This document shows positions 1,870 through 20,906 of a stretch of 21,042 nucleotides of DNA, in pieces (position 1 is the stretch's first letter; each line of letters begins with the position of its first letter). Source of the DNA: a virus; IMG/VR virus record IMGVR_UViG_3300047388_000155, positions 1-21,042 of that record, one strand, 5' to 3'. The translations under genes were made by a program, and so were the position numbers. The notes below the pieces were generated by a model that worked only from the letters and a program-made list of their open reading frames with translations, did no database searches and was not told the DNA's origin.

Positions 1870-3393
1870 TTATTCTTCGAAGCGTGCGCGATATTCGCGC
1901 AGTGTGCGCCCTGAGATGCCGATACGGGCTGCGATTTGCTCCCACGTGAGTCCATTACCGCCCTCGCGCAAAGACTGAGCCTTGGCCCACATAGCGCGCG
2001 CCACGGGGTCTGACTCGATCCGCGGACGGCCTGCGCGGTTGCCGGTGGCAGGCTTCGCTGTAACGCCGGGAGCGGCTGGCGTGCCGGGAGCCGCGATAGT
2101 TGGGTCATTCCCGCCGGGGTTCGTCTCGGGCTGCGCGCGTGTCGTGAGCGCCGGAGGCGGATCGCTAAGCTCTTCGAAGCTCATCGGCACCATGTTTGCC
2201 GGCACCAGATAAGTGCCGGTGCGCTCAGCCTCTTCCAACCCGATCTTGTTCTGCGCCGACTCCAGCGAGATAAGGCCACCCATCCAGTCAGCGCGTACGC
2301 GGGCGTGAACCTTGTCCTTATCCTCTTGCAGCGCCCGAACGTCGCTAAGGTCGAAGCTTACATAGTCCAGATCTGGGAAGTCGATGGTTAGATCCCGGTT
2401 CAGCGGCCCCTCTAGCTCTTTGTAGAGCGTCGCCAGCGTCTCATCCCAGAACGATTCCCGGTCGCTCTTACGGTTGCCGTAGGACGATGACGACATACCC
2501 AGGCGCGCGCCGATGAGCGACAGCGGGACGCCAAACGGCATGGCCAACCGCGCTTCGTTAATCTCATCTAGCTCCGGCGCAACAATGCCGCGCTGGCCTA
2601 ACTGCGCTGTTATCGGCGTAAAAGTCGCGTCGGCGCCGTCGAGAATCATCGTCTCGTGCCAATTGCCCTGCCCGAATTGCGTCTTCAGCCGGTGGCGCAA
2701 GTCTTCGCGCTGATCGTCCCGAAGCTTGTTTTTTGTAGACAATATGCCAGCAGGCACCGCGGCGTTCTCGAGAAATGCCTTCACAAAGCTTCGTAGGTAG
2801 CTGTCCGTGTCGATGCGCGGGGCGATGACTCGCAGCGGCGACATTCCGTAATAGTCGTCAACCGGATTGCGCTTGCGCCAATGAATGACGTCGGAGGCGT
2901 CAAGCTGCACATATTCCGAGTTGCCGATCCAATAGTCATACCGCTTGATGAATTTCTGCGAGTCAGGGACGATGCGCACGCGGTCTGGGCGCAACAGCCA
3001 AAGCTGAACCGGACGGCCTGCACCTGAACGAACCTTCAGCGCATAGGCGTTGCCGGAGATATAGAGGTGCATGATGATCGTCGCCCATAGCTGGAAGCGA
3101 TCCATAAACGGGTTGGGATTCTCCAGCAGAGTCAGCAGCTTGCTGTCATAAACCGCCGTCTTGCCGCGCAGCCCGACCATCTTAGGCTCCGACGCGCTGG
3201 ACGATAGCTCTTCGATCGCGGCGTAAACAATCTCATTGCCGCCGTAGCCTTCATTGGCGAAGGCGAGGTAGTTAAGCTGCATTGGCTGCTGAATGCCGTC
3301 CTGCCAGGACGGAGCCGGATGCCATTGTGCGCTTAGGTTCTGTGGCGCGAAGAGGCTGCGCAGGCCCGTTACAGCTTCAGCAATAAGGCCCAT
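1870..3393 (-). CDS. Portal protein with an added C-terminal helix-turn-helix segment
   Basis: This is the HK97-family portal, the dodecameric ring at the capsid vertex through which DNA is packaged. The ATG at 3393 is chosen because it overlaps the upstream TGA (TGATG) and is preceded by AGGCGG at 6 nt. A GTG 18 nt further upstream is less likely. Family marks include LLENPNPFMDRFQLW, LYISGNAYALKVR, LRPDRVRIV, DVIHWRKRNPVDDYYGMSPL and MPFGVPLSLIGAR. The portal core ends near residue 405. A Pro/Ala-rich linker follows, and the last about 54 residues contain an AT-hook-like RAGRPRIES and a helix-turn-helix-like GLTWEQIAARIGISGRTLREY. That appendage is not part of the usual portal fold. The frame is uninterrupted through the junction. 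Total 507 residues. Confidence 0.92.
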   Translation of the reverse strand: MGLIAEAVTGLRSLFAPQNLSAQWHPAPSWQDGIQQPMQLNYLAFANEGYGGNEIVYAAIEELSSSASEPKMVGLRGKTAVYDSKLLTLLENPNPFMDRFQLWATIIMHLYISGNAYALKVRSGAGRPVQLWLLRPDRVRIVPDSQKFIKRYDYWIGNSEYVQLDASDVIHWRKRNPVDDYYGMSPLRVIAPRIDTDSYLRSFVKAFLENAAVPAGILSTKNKLRDDQREDLRHRLKTQFGQGNWHETMILDGADATFTPITAQLGQRGIVAPELDEINEARLAMPFGVPLSLIGARLGMSSSSYGNRKSDRESFWDETLATLYKELEGPLNRDLTIDFPDLDYVSFDLSDVRALQEDKDKVHARVRADWMGGLISLESAQNKIGLEEAERTGTYLVPANMVPMSFEELSDPPPALTTRAQPETNPGGNDPTIAAPGTPAAPGVTAKPATGNRAGRPRIESDPVARAMWAKAQSLREGGNGLTWEQIAARIGISGRTLREYRARFEE

Positions 3394-3530
3394 CAGAAAC
3401 CGCCTACCCACCTAAACGTTTGCACGGCTGCGCCGAGTATAGCAGCAACCATTATGAGCGTGATTGCCGTCAGCAATAAGACGCCCAGGCAAACAGCGAT
3501 TATGCGCAGGTCATCCCGGTCAAACTTCAT
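3393..3530 (-). CDS. 45-aa single-span membrane protein between terminase and portal
   Basis: The product starts MKFDRDDLRIIAVCLGVLLL. It has a short charged N-terminus, one hydrophobic segment of about 25 residues (10-35) and a short basic end (FRWVGGF). Its ATG overlaps the large-terminase stop (ATGA, 3527-3530). Its TGA overlaps the portal ATG (TGATG, 3391-3395). Both junctions being exact stop/start overlaps is strong evidence that this is a real, coupled gene rather than a gap. A one-span protein could be holin-like or act at the membrane during assembly, but nothing in the sequence decides this. It is short enough to be missed by default gene callers. Confidence 0.8.
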   Translation of the reverse strand: MKFDRDDLRIIAVCLGVLLLTAITLIMVAAILGAAVQTFRWVGGF

Positions 3531-8486: not shown

Positions 8487-8768
8487 TCACTCCTCTGTGT
8501 TGCTGATGACAGCATCGTAACCCAACAGGGGAGATGGCGTCAACCCTTTTTCGGTAACTTTCGGATCTTTTTTCTCAGCCTTGTGTTGTTCCGCTAGAAA
8601 CAGCCGCCATCGCCTGAACTTCGGGTCGCGTGGGTTGTCGTAGCCCCAGTTGCCCGGCGGGATGGTGATGTCCGTCTTGCATTGGCCGCACATGTCACTC
8701 ACGCGGATGACTGACATAGGCCGGCGGCAGCGGACGCAGCGCGGGGCTAACTGCCTGGGAGTATCCAT
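8487..8768 (-). CDS. 93-aa zinc-ribbon protein with basic tail
   Basis: The start at 8768 gives a product opening MDTPRQLAPRCVRCRRPMSV, with a second pair MCGQC about 17 residues later, a compact zinc ribbon. Then comes PPGNWGYDNPRDPKFRRWR and a Lys/Glu-rich helix (AEQHKAEKKDPKVTEKG). The start overlaps the 3' end of the Toprim gene by 22 bases and has GAGGG upstream. A longer frame to 8855 would lie wholly inside the Toprim gene and is not preferred. Probably nucleic-acid binding, but no function is known. Confidence 0.7.
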   Translation of the reverse strand: MDTPRQLAPRCVRCRRPMSVIRVSDMCGQCKTDITIPPGNWGYDNPRDPKFRRWRLFLAEQHKAEKKDPKVTEKGLTPSPLLGYDAVISNTEE

Positions 8769-10510
8769 TCTGGGTGCCCTCGCTCGTGGGTAATCCGGTC
8801 TGACGAGACGCGCATTGCGTATGTCTTGAGGTTTGACGAGCCGCAGAACGGGCAAACGTCCTTATGTTTGCCGCCACCACTACCGCCACCGCCGGAAACG
8901 CCGCCTAACTTGATTGGCTCAGGCTCCTCCGGCCCCTCGTTCATACCAGGGTTAGCGTCCTGTGTCCCTATAGGACTATAAGCCGGGTATAGCGAGCCGA
9001 AGCCGGTGAAGCGCTTGCGTCCCTGAGTCTGGTTCACCCAGTCCTTAAACTCGGCATCCGTAACGTCTTCGCGCACGGCTTCCACCGTCTCGGCTTCGTA
9101 TTCGCGCCAGAGCCAGGAAGCTACTTGTCGCTCCGACTGAAGCTCGCGCACGGGCTGAACGGTGAACGTGCCCAGCCGTTCCGGCGCCGCTACAGCCTGC
9201 GGCACGGCCAGCAGGATAACGGCTCCGTGCTCAGCAGACCAGCGCACGCCGACAATGCCGCCCTGGACATATGCCTTACTGCGGGCCTCCGTGAAGCGGT
9301 TGCGGGCCTGCTTGAGGCTGATGCGTTCGTCCGGCACATAGCGCACCGTCGTGAAGTATTCACCGGCTAAACGTTCAGACTGCTTCTGCTTCCAGTCGCC
9401 GAAGAAACGTCCAGGCGCGCAGCGCGGGCACAGGACGTCGTGGCAAGTCATGACGTAGGCCGGACGTCCCTTGCAGTCCAGGCAGAACGCCGGACGCCAG
9501 CGGTTGTAACAAGTGCCCAGCGTAACGGCGCGCTCATGCCAGCCAACACGCTCACATAATTCGATGTACCTGCTCTGCACCTGCTCCCGCGCAACAAAGG
9601 CAGCGTTGGCGATTGTGGAGGCTTCAGCAACGGCTTCCGCCGCGTCGGCTTCTGTGACCGGAGGTGCTACGAACGTCGGCAGCTTCATGTAGGCGCGTAG
9701 CTCTTCGACGGTGCCCACCCAGTCGGCGGCGTCGTAGCCCTTCTTGATCTCCGTAAAGGCGCTCACGTCGAGACGCCAGACGTCATTGCCCTGCGCGTGG
9801 AGGTGCGCCGCGGCGGCGTCCATCAGACCGATGCCTGCATCGTCGGCGTCGGGCCATTGGACGATTGGGTGCCCCTTCAGGCATTCCCAGACGGCGGGAT
9901 TAGGACAGTTGCTTGCGCCGGAGGCCACGGCAAGGGTGCGAAAGCGACGCTCTTTGAGCCAGTCGCGCGTTGTCTCGCCTTCGACAAGGATGATGGTGCA
10001 GCCCTCCGGCCACGTGCGTATGTCTTCGGAGCCGTACAGCGGCAGATCGCGGGAGCTTACGCCTCCCAGGCCCATGCGCCCGTCGGCGCCCATAAACCTG
10101 AACGTCTTGCTGCCGTCGGCAAACTCAAGCCGCCGGTGGATTGCCACGGTCATTCCCAACGTGTCGCGGATTGGATAGTCAATCGTGCGCACAGGCTCAG
10201 CAGGTTTGTCGGACGCGATACGAGGTCCCGGCGAAGCGGCCTGCTTCTGGCGCGGCTGGGGGTTGAAGGCGACGGGTGCGCTGCCGTGTTCGGTGCCGCA
10301 TTCGCACATCCCGCGGCGGCGGTGCCGGAAGGTATCCAGCGGCCCGTCTAGTGGCGACTGCACGCGCGAGCAGATGATCGACCCTTCGGTCATGTAGCCA
10401 ATGCAGCGGATGCCCTGATGTTGAGGGAGCCGCGCGTGTCCGCCGCAGAGCGGACAAGGGACAGAAGCGTTTTTAAAGTATTGCCTGGGTGACGCCGCTT
10501 GTGACGTCAT
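8747..10510 (-). CDS. Toprim primase-like protein fused to a Rep-like domain
   Basis: This 587-residue protein has four parts. Residues 17-71 hold Cys pairs (C19/C22, C36, C47, C69/C71), as in DNA-primase zinc fingers. Residues about 110-275 are a Toprim fold: IILVEGE with Glu177 and QWPDADDAG with Asp221/Asp223. Residues about 310-510 look like a plasmid/phage rolling-circle Rep protein: MTCHDVLCPRC (354-364), the strand-rich YFTTVRYVP, an ARNRFTEARSKAYVQGG helix, a WLWREYEAE Tyr segment and GRKRFTGFG. The usual HUH histidines are absent at GVRWSAEHGAVILLAV (421-436). A Gly-rich linker (537-548) leads to a final CPFC ribbon (C553/C556). The ATG at 10510 has no ribosome site but overlaps the stop of a 26-codon frame (ATGA). 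With the helicase next door it probably acts in replication. Confidence 0.75.
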   Translation of the reverse strand: MTSQAASPRQYFKNASVPCPLCGGHARLPQHQGIRCIGYMTEGSIICSRVQSPLDGPLDTFRHRRRGMCECGTEHGSAPVAFNPQPRQKQAASPGPRIASDKPAEPVRTIDYPIRDTLGMTVAIHRRLEFADGSKTFRFMGADGRMGLGGVSSRDLPLYGSEDIRTWPEGCTIILVEGETTRDWLKERRFRTLAVASGASNCPNPAVWECLKGHPIVQWPDADDAGIGLMDAAAAHLHAQGNDVWRLDVSAFTEIKKGYDAADWVGTVEELRAYMKLPTFVAPPVTEADAAEAVAEASTIANAAFVAREQVQSRYIELCERVGWHERAVTLGTCYNRWRPAFCLDCKGRPAYVMTCHDVLCPRCAPGRFFGDWKQKQSERLAGEYFTTVRYVPDERISLKQARNRFTEARSKAYVQGGIVGVRWSAEHGAVILLAVPQAVAAPERLGTFTVQPVRELQSERQVASWLWREYEAETVEAVREDVTDAEFKDWVNQTQGRKRFTGFGSLYPAYSPIGTQDANPGMNEGPEEPEPIKLGGVSGGGGSGGGKHKDVCPFCGSSNLKTYAMRVSSDRITHERGHPEWILPGS

Positions 10511-10596: not shown

Positions 10597-10622
10597 TGCC
10601 TCCTGCTTAGGCTAAACGGCTC

Positions 10623-10651
10623 GACGGCCACCTCTGCAAAAGGTGGCCGTC
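10623..10651. promoter_or_regulatory. Eleven-bp hairpin in the gap between helicase and Toprim genes
   Basis: GACGGCCACCT (10623-10633) pairs perfectly with AGGTGGCCGTC (10641-10651) across a 7-nt loop. Neither side has a T-run, so it is not a standard intrinsic terminator. In a transcript starting near the TATAAT at 10674-10679 it would sit in the 5' leader of the Toprim mRNA, so attenuation or mRNA protection is possible. Confidence 0.5.
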
Positions 10652-10673
10652 TTCACGTTTGCGGGTTCCGCCG

Positions 10674-10685: not shown

Positions 10686-12320
10686 TCAGCGCTTGAGCGC
10701 CCGCGCTGCCTTCTGAGCTTTAGCCGCATCAATCAGATCTGACACGTCGCCCTGCTTCGCTCCCTCCGGCACCTTCACGCCCAGCACCTTAGCGAAGGCT
10801 AGCGAGCGCTCCGACGGTGGTTTACGCCGCCAGGGAGCGTCACGGCGCACAAGCGGCATCGCTCCCGCCATGTGCACGTAGTCTTCGCAGTGGCCTTGCG
10901 CGTAACCGATATCGAGGCCCGTGCGCAGAAGCTCCGACTTGTCGCTAGGGTAGCGCTCAAACGGATCCTGCGAGCGGTAGGAACGGATGACGTCGTACAA
11001 GCCATTGCCGGTCGGCTGCACCAATAGGACGCCGTCGGCGCCCGCTGAGAGTGTATAGATGCCACCTTCGCTAATGCCCCAGTGCAGGTTCCGGCGCCGG
11101 AACAAGTCAACTTCGCGGGCGACTAGCTCGCCCTCAAGCTCCATCGCCTCTTGCCGGTCGCGCAGGACGTCCAGCCCGTCAAGAATGCCCAGCACGTCTT
11201 CAATGTTGCCGCGCATGTTATCGAGTTCGTCTTCGTCGGCGGGCTGAGGTTCGACACCGAACAGCGTTGCCGCGGTGAGCAAGTCGCCGACCCTGGACGA
11301 CACGGCCACAAGGTCGAGTACCAGCAGATGCGTTTTGCCGATATGGGTGCGAGTGCCGCGGCCCAACATCTGGGTGTACAGCGGCCTGCTACACGTCGGG
11401 CGCGCCATGATGATGCAGTCAACCGCAGGCTCGTCGTAGCCTTCGGTGAGCACCATGCAGTTACATAGAACGGTTATGTCGCCGCTGCCGAAGCGCCGGA
11501 GGATCTCGTGCCGCTCGGCTTCCGGCGTGCCTGCCTCCACCATCGACGTCGAGTATCCGGCGTCGGCAAACGCCTGCATAAAGCTGCGGGCGCTTGCAAT
11601 GGTAGGTGCAAATAGAAGCGTCCGGCGTCCCAGCGCGTGCTTTTCCCAGGCTTCTACCGCGAGCCTGGGAGCATCGGCGTTGTCTAGCCTATCAGCCAAT
11701 TCGGTGCCGATATAATCGCCGTGCTGCTTATGCAGGCCCCGCATGTTGAGTTTTACGCCGATCTCCAGCGCTTTGATATCGCACAGGTAACCCTGGCGCA
11801 TCAGGTCGAGCATGGAGGTTTCGTACGTAATGGAGTCGTACATGTCGTCCAGACCTTTGCGGTCTGTGCGCTCCAGCGTGGCGCTCACGCCCAGCAGAAG
11901 GGTGTTCGGCCCGACGACATGCTCAAGGATGCGGTGGTAGCTTTCTGCGGCGGTGTGGTGCGCTTCATCGACGATTACCGTGTCATAGGCCCGCGGGAAG
12001 CGCTCCAGCCGCGCTGGACGCGCCAACGACTGCACCGACGCAATCGTTATCTGCTGAGCCGTCTCGTTACGCTCTGCCTTGACGATGCCGGAGCTTAGCT
12101 CCGGCGCAACCATATGCATCTTCTGCTGGGCCTGGATGATTAGCTCATCCCGGTGCGCCAGGATCAGGGAGCGCCCGCCGCGCTGCTGACACAGCGAGCA
12201 GAACACTACCGTCTTTCCGGCGCCGGTCGGAAGCTGTATGGCCTGCCGGTTGATGCCGCCTTCGTAGGCGTCGAGCACGGCTGAGATCGCGGCGTTCTGA
12301 TAAGGACGCAGGGTGATCAC
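10686..12320 (-). CDS. Superfamily 2 DEAD/DEAH-type helicase
   Basis: The start is GTG at 12320-12318, which overlaps the stop of the preceding gene (GTGA) and puts the Q-motif-like ITLRPYQNAA at the N-terminus. Earlier starts would run inside the upstream gene. Of 544 residues, motif I is LPTGAGKT (Lys36), motif II is VDEAHH (DEAH at 118-121) and motif III is GVSATLERTD (SAT at 146-148). The second RecA domain shows TEGYDEP and QMLGRGTRT. The C-terminal third carries WRRKPPSERSLAFAKVLGV and GDVSDLIDAAKAQ, a region typical of phage-encoded helicases of this group. It would unwind DNA in phage replication or recombination. The adjacent Toprim protein is the natural partner. Confidence 0.9.
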   Translation of the reverse strand: MITLRPYQNAAISAVLDAYEGGINRQAIQLPTGAGKTVVFCSLCQQRGGRSLILAHRDELIIQAQQKMHMVAPELSSGIVKAERNETAQQITIASVQSLARPARLERFPRAYDTVIVDEAHHTAAESYHRILEHVVGPNTLLLGVSATLERTDRKGLDDMYDSITYETSMLDLMRQGYLCDIKALEIGVKLNMRGLHKQHGDYIGTELADRLDNADAPRLAVEAWEKHALGRRTLLFAPTIASARSFMQAFADAGYSTSMVEAGTPEAERHEILRRFGSGDITVLCNCMVLTEGYDEPAVDCIIMARPTCSRPLYTQMLGRGTRTHIGKTHLLVLDLVAVSSRVGDLLTAATLFGVEPQPADEDELDNMRGNIEDVLGILDGLDVLRDRQEAMELEGELVAREVDLFRRRNLHWGISEGGIYTLSAGADGVLLVQPTGNGLYDVIRSYRSQDPFERYPSDKSELLRTGLDIGYAQGHCEDYVHMAGAMPLVRRDAPWRRKPPSERSLAFAKVLGVKVPEGAKQGDVSDLIDAAKAQKAARALKR

Positions 12321-12544
12321 AGGGACACCTCGCCGTCTTCTTCTTCCAGGCACTGGATCCACGATTTCGCGAGCATCAGCGCCGCTGCCGCTAGGCAACG
12401 CTCGCATATATTTAATTCTTCGTGCTGCATGGTCAGGTTAAAGCCGTCCCAGGTAGCACCGTCACCCTGAGTGGAAAATAGGAAGAATGGCACCGTCCTC
12501 TCTATCTCAGTCAGCGGGGCGTTGCACTTGTCGCAGGTAATCAC
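12317..12544 (-). CDS. 75-aa zinc-finger protein, copy 2 of a tandem duplication
   Basis: The product opens ITCDKCNAPLTE after a GTG start that overlaps the upstream stop (GTGA). A second pair, ICERCLAAAALMLAKSW, closes the domain, so there are four Cys ligands. The middle segment ATWDGFNLTMQHEELN is almost the same as in the upstream neighbour, so the two genes arose by tandem duplication. The Cys pairs frame a small beta-strand region, a rubredoxin-like or zinc-ribbon layout. Function is unknown. It is coupled to the helicase gene by a GTGA overlap. Confidence 0.8.
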   Translation of the reverse strand: MITCDKCNAPLTEIERTVPFFLFSTQGDGATWDGFNLTMQHEELNICERCLAAAALMLAKSWIQCLEEEDGEVSL

Positions 12545-12786
12545 AACGGCACCTCATCGTCGGGGCGCTCGCCGTCCAGGCGCTTGAGGTGCGTAATCCA
12601 TTTCTGCGCGAGCGCCATCGCGGCTTCTGCATGGCAGCGCTCACATGCGCTCAAGCCTTCTGTCTGCATCCTCAATTCAAAGCCGTCCCAGGTGGCATCT
12701 GGATCATATTCCTGAGTCCAGAAAAAGTACTCCACCGCGTAGATCTCATTTTGAGTCAGCGGGGCGTTGCATTTGTCACAGGTCAT
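12541..12786 (-). CDS. 81-aa zinc-finger protein, copy 1 of a tandem duplication
   Basis: The start at 12786 is chosen because AAGGAG lies 10 nt upstream and the product then opens MTCDKCNAPLTQ, exactly like the next gene. A longer frame to 12831 would run into the promoter. It shares CDKCNAPLT, ATWDGF, CERC and AQKWI-type residues with the downstream copy and ends with an acidic tail (DGERPDDEVPL). It is the first gene of the long minus-strand operon. Function unknown. Confidence 0.8.
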   Translation of the reverse strand: MTCDKCNAPLTQNEIYAVEYFFWTQEYDPDATWDGFELRMQTEGLSACERCHAEAAMALAQKWITHLKRLDGERPDDEVPL

Positions 12787-12821
12787 GTTTGGCAAACTCC
12801 TTCTACCTTTTCGGCACGGCG

Positions 12822-12850
12822 ATCGTAGCACACAACGTTGACAGCCGCAA
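12822..12850 (-). promoter_or_regulatory. Promoter of the minus-strand operon
   Basis: On the minus strand, -35 TTGCGG (12850-12845) and -10 TACGAT (12827-12822) are 17 bases apart, and the -10 is extended by TGC. It precedes the zinc-finger gene starting at 12786. It is intertwined with the plus-strand promoter: the two -35 elements are only one base apart, so the two directions probably exclude each other. Confidence 0.55.
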
Positions 12851-13087: not shown

Positions 13088-13125
13088 GAAATGACCGGCC
13101 CGTGTTCGCGGAGGCCGGTCATTTC
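13088..13125 (+). promoter_or_regulatory. Thirteen-bp perfect hairpin between the RHH gene and the next gene
   Basis: GAAATGACCGGCC (13088-13100) pairs fully with GGCCGGTCATTTC (13113-13125) across a 12-nt loop. The next bases are GGAAGGAG, the ribosome site of the following gene, so there is no T-run. It could limit read-through, protect the message or change access to the ribosome site. Transcript tests would tell these apart. Confidence 0.55.
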
Positions 13126-15897: not shown

Positions 15898-16672
15898 ATG
15901 CGAGTTTTAAGCCTAGGCTGGGGGGTTCAGTCGTGGACACTTGCAGCCATGATCGCTTTGGGAGAGCAGCCGCCCATCGATTTTGCGGTGCACGCCGATA
16001 CCACCCATGAGAAATCTGGTACTTACGAGCATGCGATGAAATGGGCACCGTGGCTCTATGACCGGGGTGTCAAGGTCGTGACAGTAAAAGCTCAAGATAC
16101 CCGCATTTTCCGTGACGATTGGGGAAAAGATGGCGGGATCATGATCCCTGCCTATTCGGAAACGCCGGAAGGCGGGGCTGGCATTATCCGTCGCCAATGC
16201 ACCGATGACTGGAAGATTGCCCCTATCCGGCGTGCCATCGCCGGAGCGTTGGCTGCACAAGGTCTAAGTAAGAGCGCCGGGGCTGTCGAATTGGTAATGG
16301 ACGCGAATGCGGGACAGCGACGTGGCTTATATCGTCAACAGTTACCCCTTAGTTGAAGGGCACATCAGCCGTGCACATTGCATCGCATGGCTTGAGGCCC
16401 ATAGCTTGCCAGTGCCGCCGAAAAGTAGCTGCACCTTCTGCCCCTTCCATAAACTGGAGGAATGGCGAGGCCTCAAGCGCGAGGGAGGCTCTGATTGGCG
16501 CAATGCCGTCGCTGCGGATGATCTGCTGGCCACGATCACTAATCGGCCCGTGAACCTTTTCCTGCATAGCAGTCATCGACGCCTTGAAGACGCTATTCGC
16601 ATTCCTGAAGATGACGGCAATGCACAAATGACCTTCGATGCACTCTGCGACGGAGGCTATTGCGGAGTTTAG
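15898..16672 (+). pseudogene. PP-loop (PAPS-reductase-like) gene split by a frameshift
   Basis: The first frame (15898-16356) begins MRVLSLGWGVQSWTLAAMIA, the PP-loop of phage PAPS-reductase-family proteins, and reaches AGAVELVM. The second frame (to 16672) resumes as TRMRDSDVAYIVNSYPLVEG and carries RAHCIAWLEAH and KSSCTFCPFHKLEEW, the conserved C-terminal part. Homologues have a GIxxDEx stretch before RM, and that stretch is missing. The frame change needs a loss of 3n+2 bases. A loss of 20 would restore seven residues exactly, and TGG (16298-16300) lies at the joint. The first frame ends 33 residues after PSR-like order is lost. It could be a real deletion, a strain variant or an assembly error. 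The intact family activates sulfate-like substrates or acts in DNA/RNA modification. Confidence 0.75.
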
Positions 16673-17044: not shown

Positions 17045-18544
17045 CTAAACGCTCGCGTCCATATCGATAATAGGCTCATAGCTGGCGTTCGCGAGCACGA
17101 CGTAAATGTAGCTGCCGGAGGCTGTGATTATCGGCTCATAGCTCGCGTCCAGATAGATGTAGATCGCCGACTCGGCAACCTTCGGAAGGTACAGGACGCC
17201 CTGCTGATCCCGCAAATGGATCGGCAGGATGCGCTTGTAGCCGCGCGGGTTAGGCCAATCGAAATTGCGCCAGGGTGCGACAACCGGCGGGATGAGCAGG
17301 GTATTTAGCTCAAGAGCGAGCGCCTCAGGCTGTCCGCGCCGCGCCTGCAATCGTGGGTTAGTCTGCACATAGCTTAGGAACGGCTGTCCCGGCACCGCTA
17401 GCAGCGTGACGATGTTATCGGCAGCTACGTCCGCCGGGAGCCTGCGAGCCAGCCGCGCAGGATTTGGCTGGTCGAAGCTAAGCAACGGCGGCTGGGCTAT
17501 GACGCCGAATAGCGCTAGAACGCTGTCAGCGTCTGGTGGTGGCTGCTGAGCGCGGCGGCTGGCACGTGATAGCTCCCAGACAAAAGCGGGCGTCTGGCCT
17601 GGGCCTGCATAGAAGCGGTCGGAGCCGACAAGCGTAAGCGGCTCGCCTTGATTGACAAAGCCACGAAGCTCGATTACCGAAGCCTTCAGACGGTTAGGCA
17701 GATCTAGCTGGAAGCCGTAAGTAATCGCTTGCCCAGGCGCGCCGTAAAAGCTAGGCGGCACGGTACTCAGCGTGTCAAGCAAATGCTCGTCGAGATGGGT
17801 GCGGAGGCTCACGGCCCGCGGATAGCCGCGTGGCGGTTGCCATTCCCAACCGGGAACCTGCCCTGGCGCACCGTAGAAAAGATCCATGCCGACAAGCGGC
17901 AGCGGCTCGCCTTGATTGACGAAGCCTCGCAATGCGATCGCCGAAGCCTTCAGGCGTGTCGGCAGGTCTAACTGGAAGCTGTAGCTGATGGCTTGCCCCG
18001 GCGCACCGTAGAAGCGATCGGCGCCCGCGAGGATAAGCGGCTCGCCTTGATCCACAAAGCCGCGAAGCTCAATCGCCGACGCCTTCAGACGCGTTGGCAA
18101 ATCTAACTGGAAGCTGTAAGTAACCGCTTGACCGGCGGCGCCGTAGAACGTCGGTGCCACCGTGCTCAGGGTGTCGAGCAAGTGATCGTCGAGATGCGTC
18201 CGCAGGCTGCTAGCTCTACTGTAGCCGCGCGGCGGTTGCCACTCCCACGGAGGCGTCTGGCCGGGAGCGCCATAGAAGCGGTCGGAGCCAATGTAGAAGA
18301 CGTCCGCCTGGAGGTTTTCCGGCTGTGCGTTCGCCGCGCGCAGGCGTTGAGCCGTAAGCGCCGTGCCACGTCCGGCGCCGGAGGGGTTAGGCCAATCGTA
18401 GCCGGGAACCTGCCCTTTTGCGCCGTAGACCGTGTCTTGCCCAGGCTCCAGAAGCAGGTTCGTCGCTAGGCGATATTCGCCCCAGGAATCGACGGCGCGC
18501 CGATACTGCTTATCGCGAGGTGAGCCGTAGCGCGTCGAAGGCAT
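17045..18544 (-). CDS. 499-aa repeat protein built from FYGAPGQ units
   Basis: No known family is recognised. Residues 89-309 are five units of 43-45 residues in two types in the order A-B-B-A-B, each opening with FYGAPGQ (or FYGAAGQ). Type A continues WEWQPPRGYxRAxSLRTHLD. Type B continues FQLDLPTRLKASAIELRGFV and ends QGEPLxLxG. Units 1 (before) and 6-9 (after) are diverged relatives that keep a WPNP, FDQPNP or YVQTNP motif. The C-terminus has two short units IYIYLDASYEPII and YIYVVLANASYEPII. No signal peptide, membrane span or Cys pair is present. The repeats suggest an elongated or beta-rich fibre protein in the virion. The start has AAGG 8 nt upstream and lies after a stop-to-start gap of one base. 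Confidence 0.75.
   Translation of the reverse strand: MPSTRYGSPRDKQYRRAVDSWGEYRLATNLLLEPGQDTVYGAKGQVPGYDWPNPSGAGRGTALTAQRLRAANAQPENLQADVFYIGSDRFYGAPGQTPPWEWQPPRGYSRASSLRTHLDDHLLDTLSTVAPTFYGAAGQAVTYSFQLDLPTRLKASAIELRGFVDQGEPLILAGADRFYGAPGQAISYSFQLDLPTRLKASAIALRGFVNQGEPLPLVGMDLFYGAPGQVPGWEWQPPRGYPRAVSLRTHLDEHLLDTLSTVPPSFYGAPGQAITYGFQLDLPNRLKASVIELRGFVNQGEPLTLVGSDRFYAGPGQTPAFVWELSRASRRAQQPPPDADSVLALFGVIAQPPLLSFDQPNPARLARRLPADVAADNIVTLLAVPGQPFLSYVQTNPRLQARRGQPEALALELNTLLIPPVVAPWRNFDWPNPRGYKRILPIHLRDQQGVLYLPKVAESAIYIYLDASYEPIITASGSYIYVVLANASYEPIIDMDASV
17618..18280 (-). repeat. Five tandem 43-45-residue coding repeats (A-B-B-A-B)
   Basis: Each unit is about 129-135 bases and is nearly the same at DNA level within its type. 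For example, the two type A units share the LRTHLDxHLLDTLSTV coding stretch and the three type B units share LDLPxRLKASxIxLRGFV. The high identity and mixed order show recent duplication and exchange between units. Unit number may vary between related genomes, and this stretch is prone to assembly collapse. Confidence 0.8.
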
Positions 18545-19289: not shown

Positions 19290-20906
19290 CTAAGGACAGA
19301 CTATCTGCGGCCCCACAGTCAGCACGCCATTAAGGTAATAAGCCTGATTGCAGACAACCGGGGTCGGCGTGCCTGTTGGCGTTGCCGTGGCGGTAGGCGT
19401 CGCTGTCGGAGGCACGGGAGTAGCGGTGGCTGTCGGCGACGGAGTCGGCGTAGATGGCTGCTGTGTGGCCGTGGGAGGCGCTGGCGTGGCCGTCGGAGGC
19501 ACAGCGGTACTAGTAGGCGGAACGGGCGTATTTGTCGGAGGGACGGCTGTTGCAGTCGGCGGAACCGGCGTCGGCGTACCTCCGGCGTTAGTAGTCACAT
19601 CGACCAAGACGAGGTTAATGTTCGCTATGATTGCCGACTGATTCGCGGTGATCGAAATGGTGTTCGGCCCAGGCAAAAGCTCCGTCTTCGGGACGTCGAA
19701 GCTAACCGTTTTCGGGCTGAAGGTCTGGTTATCTGGGTAAGGCCAAGCGCCCGTGTTCGGGTGGCCGTTGACCGTATAGGTGAAGGTCAACGGCGCGTTG
19801 TACGAATAGAAATTGAACATGAGCCGCGACGAGGCAGCGACCGGGATTAGGCTACCGTCCATTGGCACCGTGCTTACCGTTAGCGGCGTCGCCCAGCCTT
19901 CGTTGTGGGTACCGTCGCCATTGTCGGCGTTAGCGTCGAGCACGTCATAGCTAGCGTCTTTGTAAGTGAACGGGCCATCAAAGCCGACGTTATCCCAGAC
20001 GAAGGTATGAATACTTTGAAACGGCGGGCCTTCTTTATCGCCGTTGTAGTGCGCGTCTTCAATCCAGACGAGGCCGCGAGTGAACGTCAGGCCCAGGCCG
20101 TTAACCGTCGCAATATGCTTGAGCACGGAGCCGCCTGCGTCCGTCGCCCAGACTTCGGCACTGTTGACGTTGACGTTTACCTCGACATGGTTCATTGCGG
20201 CAGCGCTGCCGAACGACACGCAGTCGAGTACCTGTATGTCTAGCCCGCTAACCTGGGTTGAATCGGTGACAACGTAGTTACGACTGACGATTGCAGAATC
20301 CAGTGTCCACTTACCAGCGCAGTTGACTCCACTAGTTTCGGCGAACCCGTTGCTGTGAGCGAACCGCAAGCCGACACCGTGTTGGGGGACGGCCACCCAG
20401 GATGAAAAATGCGTGAATGGCGCAGGTACAGGCCGGTCGGTAATCCATAGTTCAGGCCATGCCGCATGTGTTCCTCCGGTGTCATTGCTTACGTCGAAAA
20501 CGATCTTGCCGGTGCGTCCGGCGAAGTCGAAGGGCTGTTTGGGATACATCGCCAGGACGGCCACATCGCCGTTATCGTTCATGGCGTCGTGAAGCTGCCC
20601 GCCGCAGACCTGGACGTCGTTCGGAGGCGCCACCGTCCCGCCGGAGCATCCCTGCATCGGCGTATTAGCGATGAGGTTGTAGCGGCCGCTGAGGTTCTGA
20701 TAGCCAACGAAGCGGCTAACTCCCCAGATACTACCGTCTAGCTGGCCGCTGCGGTTCGTTACCGCATGCGCCACGTCGAAGCCATCGCAGAATGTCATCC
20801 CCGTACAGCCGCCTACGGCCTGAATAGGCCGCGCCTGGGGGTGTGTTAAGAGCAGGATGGCAAAGACGAGCACCATAGGCGGCGAATACCGCAGAAGTTT
20901 CTTCAC
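19290..20906 (-). CDS. Secreted protein: signal peptide, lectin/GH-like domain, PT-rich linker
   Basis: The GTG start at 20906-20904 gives MKKLLRYSPPMVLVFAILLL, a typical Sec signal peptide with a probable cut after ARPIQA (about residue 30). Residues about 31-340 form a beta-rich domain with paired Cys and segments such as WPELWITDRPVPAPFTHFSS, AAMNHVEVNVNVNSAEVW and HTFVWDNVGFDGP, like concanavalin-type (LamG/GH16-like) folds. No clear catalytic pair is seen. Residues about 345-440 are a second beta domain. Residues 444-516 are a TP/PP linker (PPTATAVPPTNTPVPPT and similar), followed by a short Cys-ended tail (VVCNQAYY...QIVCP). A GAGAGG lies 11 nt upstream. A signal peptide is unusual for a phage virion gene and suggests a host-surface or lysogenic-conversion product. 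Confidence 0.7.
   Translation of the reverse strand: MKKLLRYSPPMVLVFAILLLTHPQARPIQAVGGCTGMTFCDGFDVAHAVTNRSGQLDGSIWGVSRFVGYQNLSGRYNLIANTPMQGCSGGTVAPPNDVQVCGGQLHDAMNDNGDVAVLAMYPKQPFDFAGRTGKIVFDVSNDTGGTHAAWPELWITDRPVPAPFTHFSSWVAVPQHGVGLRFAHSNGFAETSGVNCAGKWTLDSAIVSRNYVVTDSTQVSGLDIQVLDCVSFGSAAAMNHVEVNVNVNSAEVWATDAGGSVLKHIATVNGLGLTFTRGLVWIEDAHYNGDKEGPPFQSIHTFVWDNVGFDGPFTYKDASYDVLDANADNGDGTHNEGWATPLTVSTVPMDGSLIPVAASSRLMFNFYSYNAPLTFTYTVNGHPNTGAWPYPDNQTFSPKTVSFDVPKTELLPGPNTISITANQSAIIANINLVLVDVTTNAGGTPTPVPPTATAVPPTNTPVPPTSTAVPPTATPAPPTATQQPSTPTPSPTATATPVPPTATPTATATPTGTPTPVVCNQAYYLNGVLTVGPQIVCP
19359..19577 (-). repeat. Low-complexity coding tract for the TP/PP linker
   Basis: Seventy-three residues made almost only of Thr, Pro, Ala, Val and Ser in short motifs (PPTAT, PPTNT, PPTST, TPTPSPTAT). 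Similar TP/PP linkers are especially common in surface proteins of Chloroflexota, where they join domains to the cell envelope. The opposite strand shows long Gly/Val-rich frames that are only a by-product of this repetition. Confidence 0.8.

Follow-up and report, generated by a model that had tools for sequence, protein, structure and literature searches.

Primases and HUH initiators are components of distinct modes of DNA replication. According to a 2024 study, no virus or plasmid was known to combine a primase with an HUH initiator until the mriyaviruses (PMC10962738). Relaxase-primase fusions also exist (PMC5862659), and papilloma- and polyomaviruses use inactivated HUH domains to bind their origins (PMC6668415). 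In a limited literature search, we found no description of a phage primase, of either the Toprim or the AEP type, that carries a HUH-less Rep- or IS91-like tail.

The phage protein analyzed here, designated P0001, resembles the phage Toprim primase-helicases (T7 gp4-like and D5-like; phrog_6088, phrog_239) in that a Toprim head, marked by VEGE and DxD motifs, lies behind a zinc ribbon. In contrast to these enzymes, it has no helicase domain; a zinc-containing, HUH-less module stands in this position, and the helicase is encoded by a separate gene.

The P0001 gene and its surroundings

The window is the whole virus record IMGVR_UViG_3300047388_000155 (21,042 bases). P0001 (587 aa) is encoded on the minus strand at 8747-10510, which is exactly where the first-pass annotation, made from the nucleotide sequence, had placed its ORF. 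A summary of the predicted features, including their positions and the relatives that share them, is presented in Table 1.

Table 1. Predicted features of P0001 and of the adjacent helicase gene (positions in the window; L numbers designate related proteins).
Feature	Position	Strand	Matches and conservation
Whole gene: primase head (residues 1-300) and tail module (301-587)	8747..10510	-	L169 covers residues 10-582
N-terminal zinc ribbon C19/C22/C36/C47	10370..10456	-	same Cys pattern in L169, L173, L179, L182, L184, L187, L190, L191
Predicted Toprim primase domain, residues 112-290	9641..10177	-	phrog_6088, NF005477; L171 alignment
Toprim VEGE motif, residues 176-179, with E177	9974..9985	-	
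Toprim DADD motif, residues 221-224, with D221 and D223	9839..9850	-	
Tail module, residues 301-587	8750..9610	-	common to L169, L170 and (partly) L198
Six-Cys zinc domain of putative IS91/Rep type, C334-x8-C343-x2-C346-x9-C356-x4-C361-x2-C364	9419..9511	-	PF14319; hhalign
Motif-I-like strand YFTTVRYVP, residues 385-393	9332..9358	-	
Place of the HUH strand, GAVILLAVP, residues 429-437, without His	9200..9226	-	
Tyr471 (WREY)	9098..9100	-	kept in L169 and L170; apparently lacking in L198 (placed by eye)
End motif GRKRFTGFG, residues 497-505, Rep_1-like	8996..9022	-	
C-terminal CPFCG knuckle, residues 553-557 (C553, C556), after a Gly-rich linker	8840..8854	-	C-x2-C-G in 4/4 members
SF2 helicase, separate neighbouring gene, directly upstream in transcription	10686..12407	-	ResIII E 1.5e-27, phrog_16 E 2.7e-86

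The gene is flanked by the SF2 helicase gene and by a packaging block, comprised of genes for a small terminase (PF25673), a large terminase, a portal and a ClpP-like protease. Relatives of the large terminase (58% identical) occur in viral contigs and in one Dehalococcoidia bin, and the host of the phage is therefore probably a member of the Dehalococcoidia. The terminase relative in the Dehalococcoidia contig (L129:1495-4116) lies in two pieces separated by a gap of ~900 bases, perhaps an insertion, intron or intein.

Inspection of GC skew and repeats around the P0001 gene revealed no clear origin. The cumulative GC-skew minimum is located at ~13.5-14 kb, within the divergent region. Also in this region, close to the minimum, lies an inverted repeat with perfectly matching 13-bp arms and a loop of 12 bp (13088-13125), which may be an origin or a site of regulation. 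Between the helicase and primase genes there is a 20-nt imperfect hairpin (10614-10660; 80% complementary), a putative terminator or binding site.

Several other genes of the record have distinctive features. The portal protein (1870-3411) has a C-terminal helix-turn-helix (residues ~483-512; HTH_23, E 4.4e-4, and a weak match to the small-terminase profile phrog_309), and this predicted portal-HTH fusion is unusual. A PAPS-reductase-like gene (15898-16672) is divided between two ORFs that overlap in different frames and each match phrog_424 (profile positions 164-262 and 296-412), owing to either a frameshift or an assembly error. Two adjacent small Cys-rich genes (12317-12831) appear to be tandem duplicates, with a direct repeat of 43 nt at 84%. 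The region 17045-18544 encodes a 499-aa protein composed of repeated FYGAPGQ-type units, with no Pfam or PHROG match, and a protein of 538 aa, encoded at 19290-20906, contains a long Pro/Thr linker (PTATPTP) and has no PHROG match. Pro/Thr linkers are common in surface proteins of Chloroflexota.

The tail module and its relatives

A search of 393 Dehalococcoidia genomes with P0001 identified, in independent genomes, two relatives of the tail: L169 (587 aa), which has the same architecture and matches residues 10-582 (E 7.4e-53), and L170, which matches residues 323-573 (E 6.0e-38). A profile built from these three tails detected another member, L198 (E 1.5e-6). The tail of L170 is preceded by an AEP Prim-Pol domain (E 1.7e-10) and a CHC2 finger (E 1.8e-6), and the head of L198 consists of a CHC2 finger only (E 1.5e-14). 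Since the heads of P0001/L169, L170 and L198 differ, the tail is a module paired with three kinds of primase part.

Where the genetic setting of the tail-bearing genes was readable, it was that of a phage. L170 adjoins a small terminase gene. L169 lies in a provirus-like block, bordered on one side by a serine integrase and a sigma-like gene and on the opposite side by a ParB/methylase gene, with, judging from a reading of the gene, a putative terminase further on; no helicase was seen in this block as far as the end of the contig.

The relatives of the tail (L169, L170 and L198) are few and all belong to one bacterial class. Scans for close homologues with P0001 as a single sequence found nothing in viral or genome contigs, and in phage and plasmid collections P0001 gave Toprim matches only, or nothing useful. 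In collections of phages, plasmids and viruses, residues 301-587 were not closely matched, and scanning viral sequences with L198 or with alignments of the tail (A2/A3) yielded no relatives. The weak tail matches that were inspected among 400 Chloroflexota genomes look like chance, as do L199, L201 and L207.

The Cys pattern TCHDVLCPRC, which the first-pass annotation had taken as a mark of rolling-circle Rep proteins, is present (residues 355-364) and forms part of the six-Cys zinc domain. All four members match PF14319 (Zn_Tnp_IS91) in one register (best E 4.9e-5; L198, E 0.46), with scores that, where shown, do not reach the curated threshold of 26.3 bits; the Cys residues fall at profile positions ~32, 41, 44, 54, 59 and 62, of which L169 lacks the one at 44. 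Comparison of the zinc part by hhalign gave E 1.1e-4 against the IS91 alignment and E 1.4e-3 against Rep_1, with 0 of 100 shuffles as high in either case. Assignment of this domain to the Rep_1 instead of the IS91 type was rejected, as the Rep_1 similarity is the weaker there.

Beyond the zinc domain, the similarity is of a lower order. With MAC realignment, hhalign aligned the whole tail to IS91, but with -norealign the zinc part alone was significant, and the profile comparison of the post-zinc part with IS91/Rep_1 reached the level of 3-7 in 100 shuffles. The 45 aa following the zinc domain beat 1000 of 1000 joint permutations against IS91; measured against windows of real proteins, the same segment is borderline (1.9% for P0001, 5-6% for L169 and L170). 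The IS91 HMM, whose match to P0001 extends from the zinc domain through YFTTVRYVP, gives L170, P0001 and L198 higher ranks than any unrelated control protein. None of the four members has a Y2_Tnp or Rep_1 match in Pfam.

The HUH motif (two His flanking a hydrophobic residue) is absent from P0001 and from all three homologues collected. The corresponding slot reads GAVILLAVP in P0001, VVLLILP in L169, GAVIMLAIP in L170 and PVFHVLMP in L198, so that L198 keeps the second His and the other three have lost both. The slots of P0001, L169 and L170 are not significantly similar to HUH strands, nor is their core, from the zinc domain to the Tyr, significantly similar in sequence to HUH proteins; compared with Rep_1, the HUH region of L198 falls within the top 0.12% of control windows. 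Downstream of the slot, the segments WREYEAE (residues 468-474) and GRKRFTGFG (residues 497-505) noted in the first-pass annotation are both present. When Tyr...GRRRF..FG was compared with Rep_1, control windows scored as high in 0.33% (P0001), 1.4% (L170), 3.0% (L198) and 7.8% (L169) of cases. Beyond the HUH slot L198 was placed by eye, since its MAFFT alignment looks wrong there.

The description of the tail as a Rep-like domain devoid of HUH is thus supported by the homologues, by the missing histidines and by the flanking parts, which are similar to those of IS91/Rep_1; it is not supported at the HUH slot itself, where significant similarity was seen in L198 only, and the closest known layout is that of IS91/Rep_1 and not of Rep proteins generally. 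Structure prediction was uninformative: the AlphaFold model of the tail alone (single sequence) had a pLDDT of 35 and is unusable, the order of its strands and helices being compatible with the HUH fold (beta-alpha-beta-beta core) but no evidence for it, and a model of the head with two distant relatives (pLDDT 34) is likewise unusable. The tail profile matched no solved chain by sequence.

From these comparisons, Rep/IS91 ancestry of the tail appears likely. We infer HUH ancestry with good but not high confidence, because the tests depend on one another and knowledge of the Rep layout guided the choice of segments.

The main rival to a targeting role for this module is pure protein docking. 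The tail would then be an alpha/beta domain with a zinc ribbon and no relationship to HUH endonucleases, representing a new type of C-terminal primase domain for docking onto the replicative helicase or SSB, much as the C-terminal domain of DnaG binds DnaB, and its likeness to Rep would reflect a shared zinc ribbon and chance. We regard this as possible, though doubtful. The restriction of strong significance to the zinc part, the non-significant similarity of the HUH slot and the lack of a matching solved chain are all consistent with it, and exchange between primase heads would suit docking too; it sits less well with a similarity to IS91 that runs on past the zinc domain, with an end motif that fits Rep_1 at the expected place, with the C-terminal CPxCG common to the IS91 layout, and with the His that L198 has in the HUH slot, in a Rep_1-like context.

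The head of the protein

The primase-type Cys pairs and the Toprim core (Glu177, Asp221/Asp223) recognized in the first-pass annotation are present. The front Cys set (C19-x2-C22-x13-C36-x10-C47, plus C69/C71) is kept in several Dehalococcoidia phage-type primases, and profiles of phage DNA primases (phrog_6088, E 6.9e-9; NF005477, E 2.3e-9) align with residues 114-267. A Pfam search gave no gathering-level match and no direct Toprim match for P0001 itself. In the 393 Dehalococcoidia genomes, approximately 30 proteins match the front half; those inspected are mostly primases and primase-helicases, with DUF3631, AAA_25, DnaB-like or D5-type C-terminal parts. One of them, L171 (E 1.2e-26), directly matches Toprim_2 (above its cut-off) and Toprim_4, and its catalytic residues, like those of other relatives, align with E177, D221 and D223 of P0001. 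Taken together, the phage primase matches, the Toprim matches of L171 and the aligned acidic residues support a zinc ribbon plus Toprim primase head, which P0001 shares with many Dehalococcoidia primase-helicases.

The head had been suggested to be either primer-making or nicking-closing, and only the former option agrees with the best matches. Toprim domains are common to topoisomerases, OLD-like nucleases and nicking-closing enzymes, and P0001 has no direct Pfam Toprim match of its own. Nevertheless, it is very unlikely that the head is such an enzyme and not a primase: the best matches over the same span are phage primases and primase-helicases, the order of zinc ribbon and Toprim is that of primases, and in L170 and L198 the place of the Toprim head is taken by other primase parts.

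Proposed role and comparison with known systems

We propose, with a probability of roughly 0.55, that P0001 is a phage replication primase/initiator whose tail is a nuclease-dead, IS91/Rep-derived module that places the primase on DNA or on the replisome. The zinc ribbon and Toprim front would constitute a primer-making head of the DnaG/T7-gp4 type. The helicase that usually lies behind such a head in related phages is absent, and its place would be taken by an IS91/Rep-type, HUH-derived module retaining the zinc domain, the motif-I strand, the Tyr...GRRRF end and the C-terminal zinc knuckle. As the metal-binding histidines of HUH are gone, the tail has presumably lost its nicking activity. 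Its most likely binding target is phage DNA (an origin, or a single-stranded or hairpin site) or a replisome partner, to which it would bring the primase; the host or the separate SF2 helicase of the phage would carry out the unwinding.

Targeting is the simplest reading because the nuclease residues have been lost, the zinc domains, the basic GRRRF and the layout have been kept, and the head has been exchanged. The presence of the same tail on unrelated primase heads suggests a reusable part for the placement of primases on DNA. Retention of a degenerate Rep for DNA binding and a new type of initiator, offered as alternatives in the first-pass annotation, would be compatible with each other; DNA binding and the initiator role are both predicted from sequence. 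It is also very unlikely that the tail remains an active nuclease through other metal ligands and Tyr471, so that the protein both nicks an origin and primes: this Tyr is kept in three of the four members, but three members have lost both His and L198 has lost one, Glu replaces the Lys of the YxxK motif of Rep_1 in P0001 (YEAE), L169 (YLDE) and L170 (YLRE), and L198, aligned by eye, apparently has Phe in place of the Tyr.

If the targeting reading is true, a dead Rep scaffold swapped among unrelated primase heads would mean that primed replication in dsDNA phages reuses parts of rolling-circle systems, and the site at which replication starts should be chosen by the tail and not by the primase.

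Among known systems, the IS91 transposases (PF14319 zinc domain plus Y2 HUH domain) share with the tail a six-Cys zinc domain, in which the last four spacings are identical, a W-containing helix, a motif-I-like strand and a terminal CPxCG. The tail differs from them in the lack of HUH, a shorter core, its location behind primase heads and the lack of a transposon context. The Rep_1 rolling-circle initiators (pC194/pUB110 type, PF01446) resemble it in having Cys...CPxC before motif I, and a Tyr followed ~24 residues on by a GR-containing end motif, whereas the tail lacks HUH, YxxK, the Trp-rich segment after HUH and a match to the Pfam profile. Fusions related to MobA/RepB' of RSF1010 also join an HUH-superfamily domain and a primase in one polypeptide (PMC5862659); in these, however, a relaxase precedes an AEP primase and the system is linked to conjugation, whereas the HUH-like part of P0001 is presumably dead, C-terminal and encoded by a phage. 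In papillomavirus E1 and polyomavirus T antigen, an inactivated HUH domain is fused to a replication enzyme (PMC6668415), which in these eukaryotic viruses is an SF3 helicase. By analogy, we tentatively propose that a nuclease-dead, IS91/Rep-derived, exchangeable origin-targeting tail on Toprim, AEP and CHC2-type heads in Dehalococcoidia phages could be the prokaryotic counterpart of these dead-HUH origin-binding domains, with a primase in place of the helicase.
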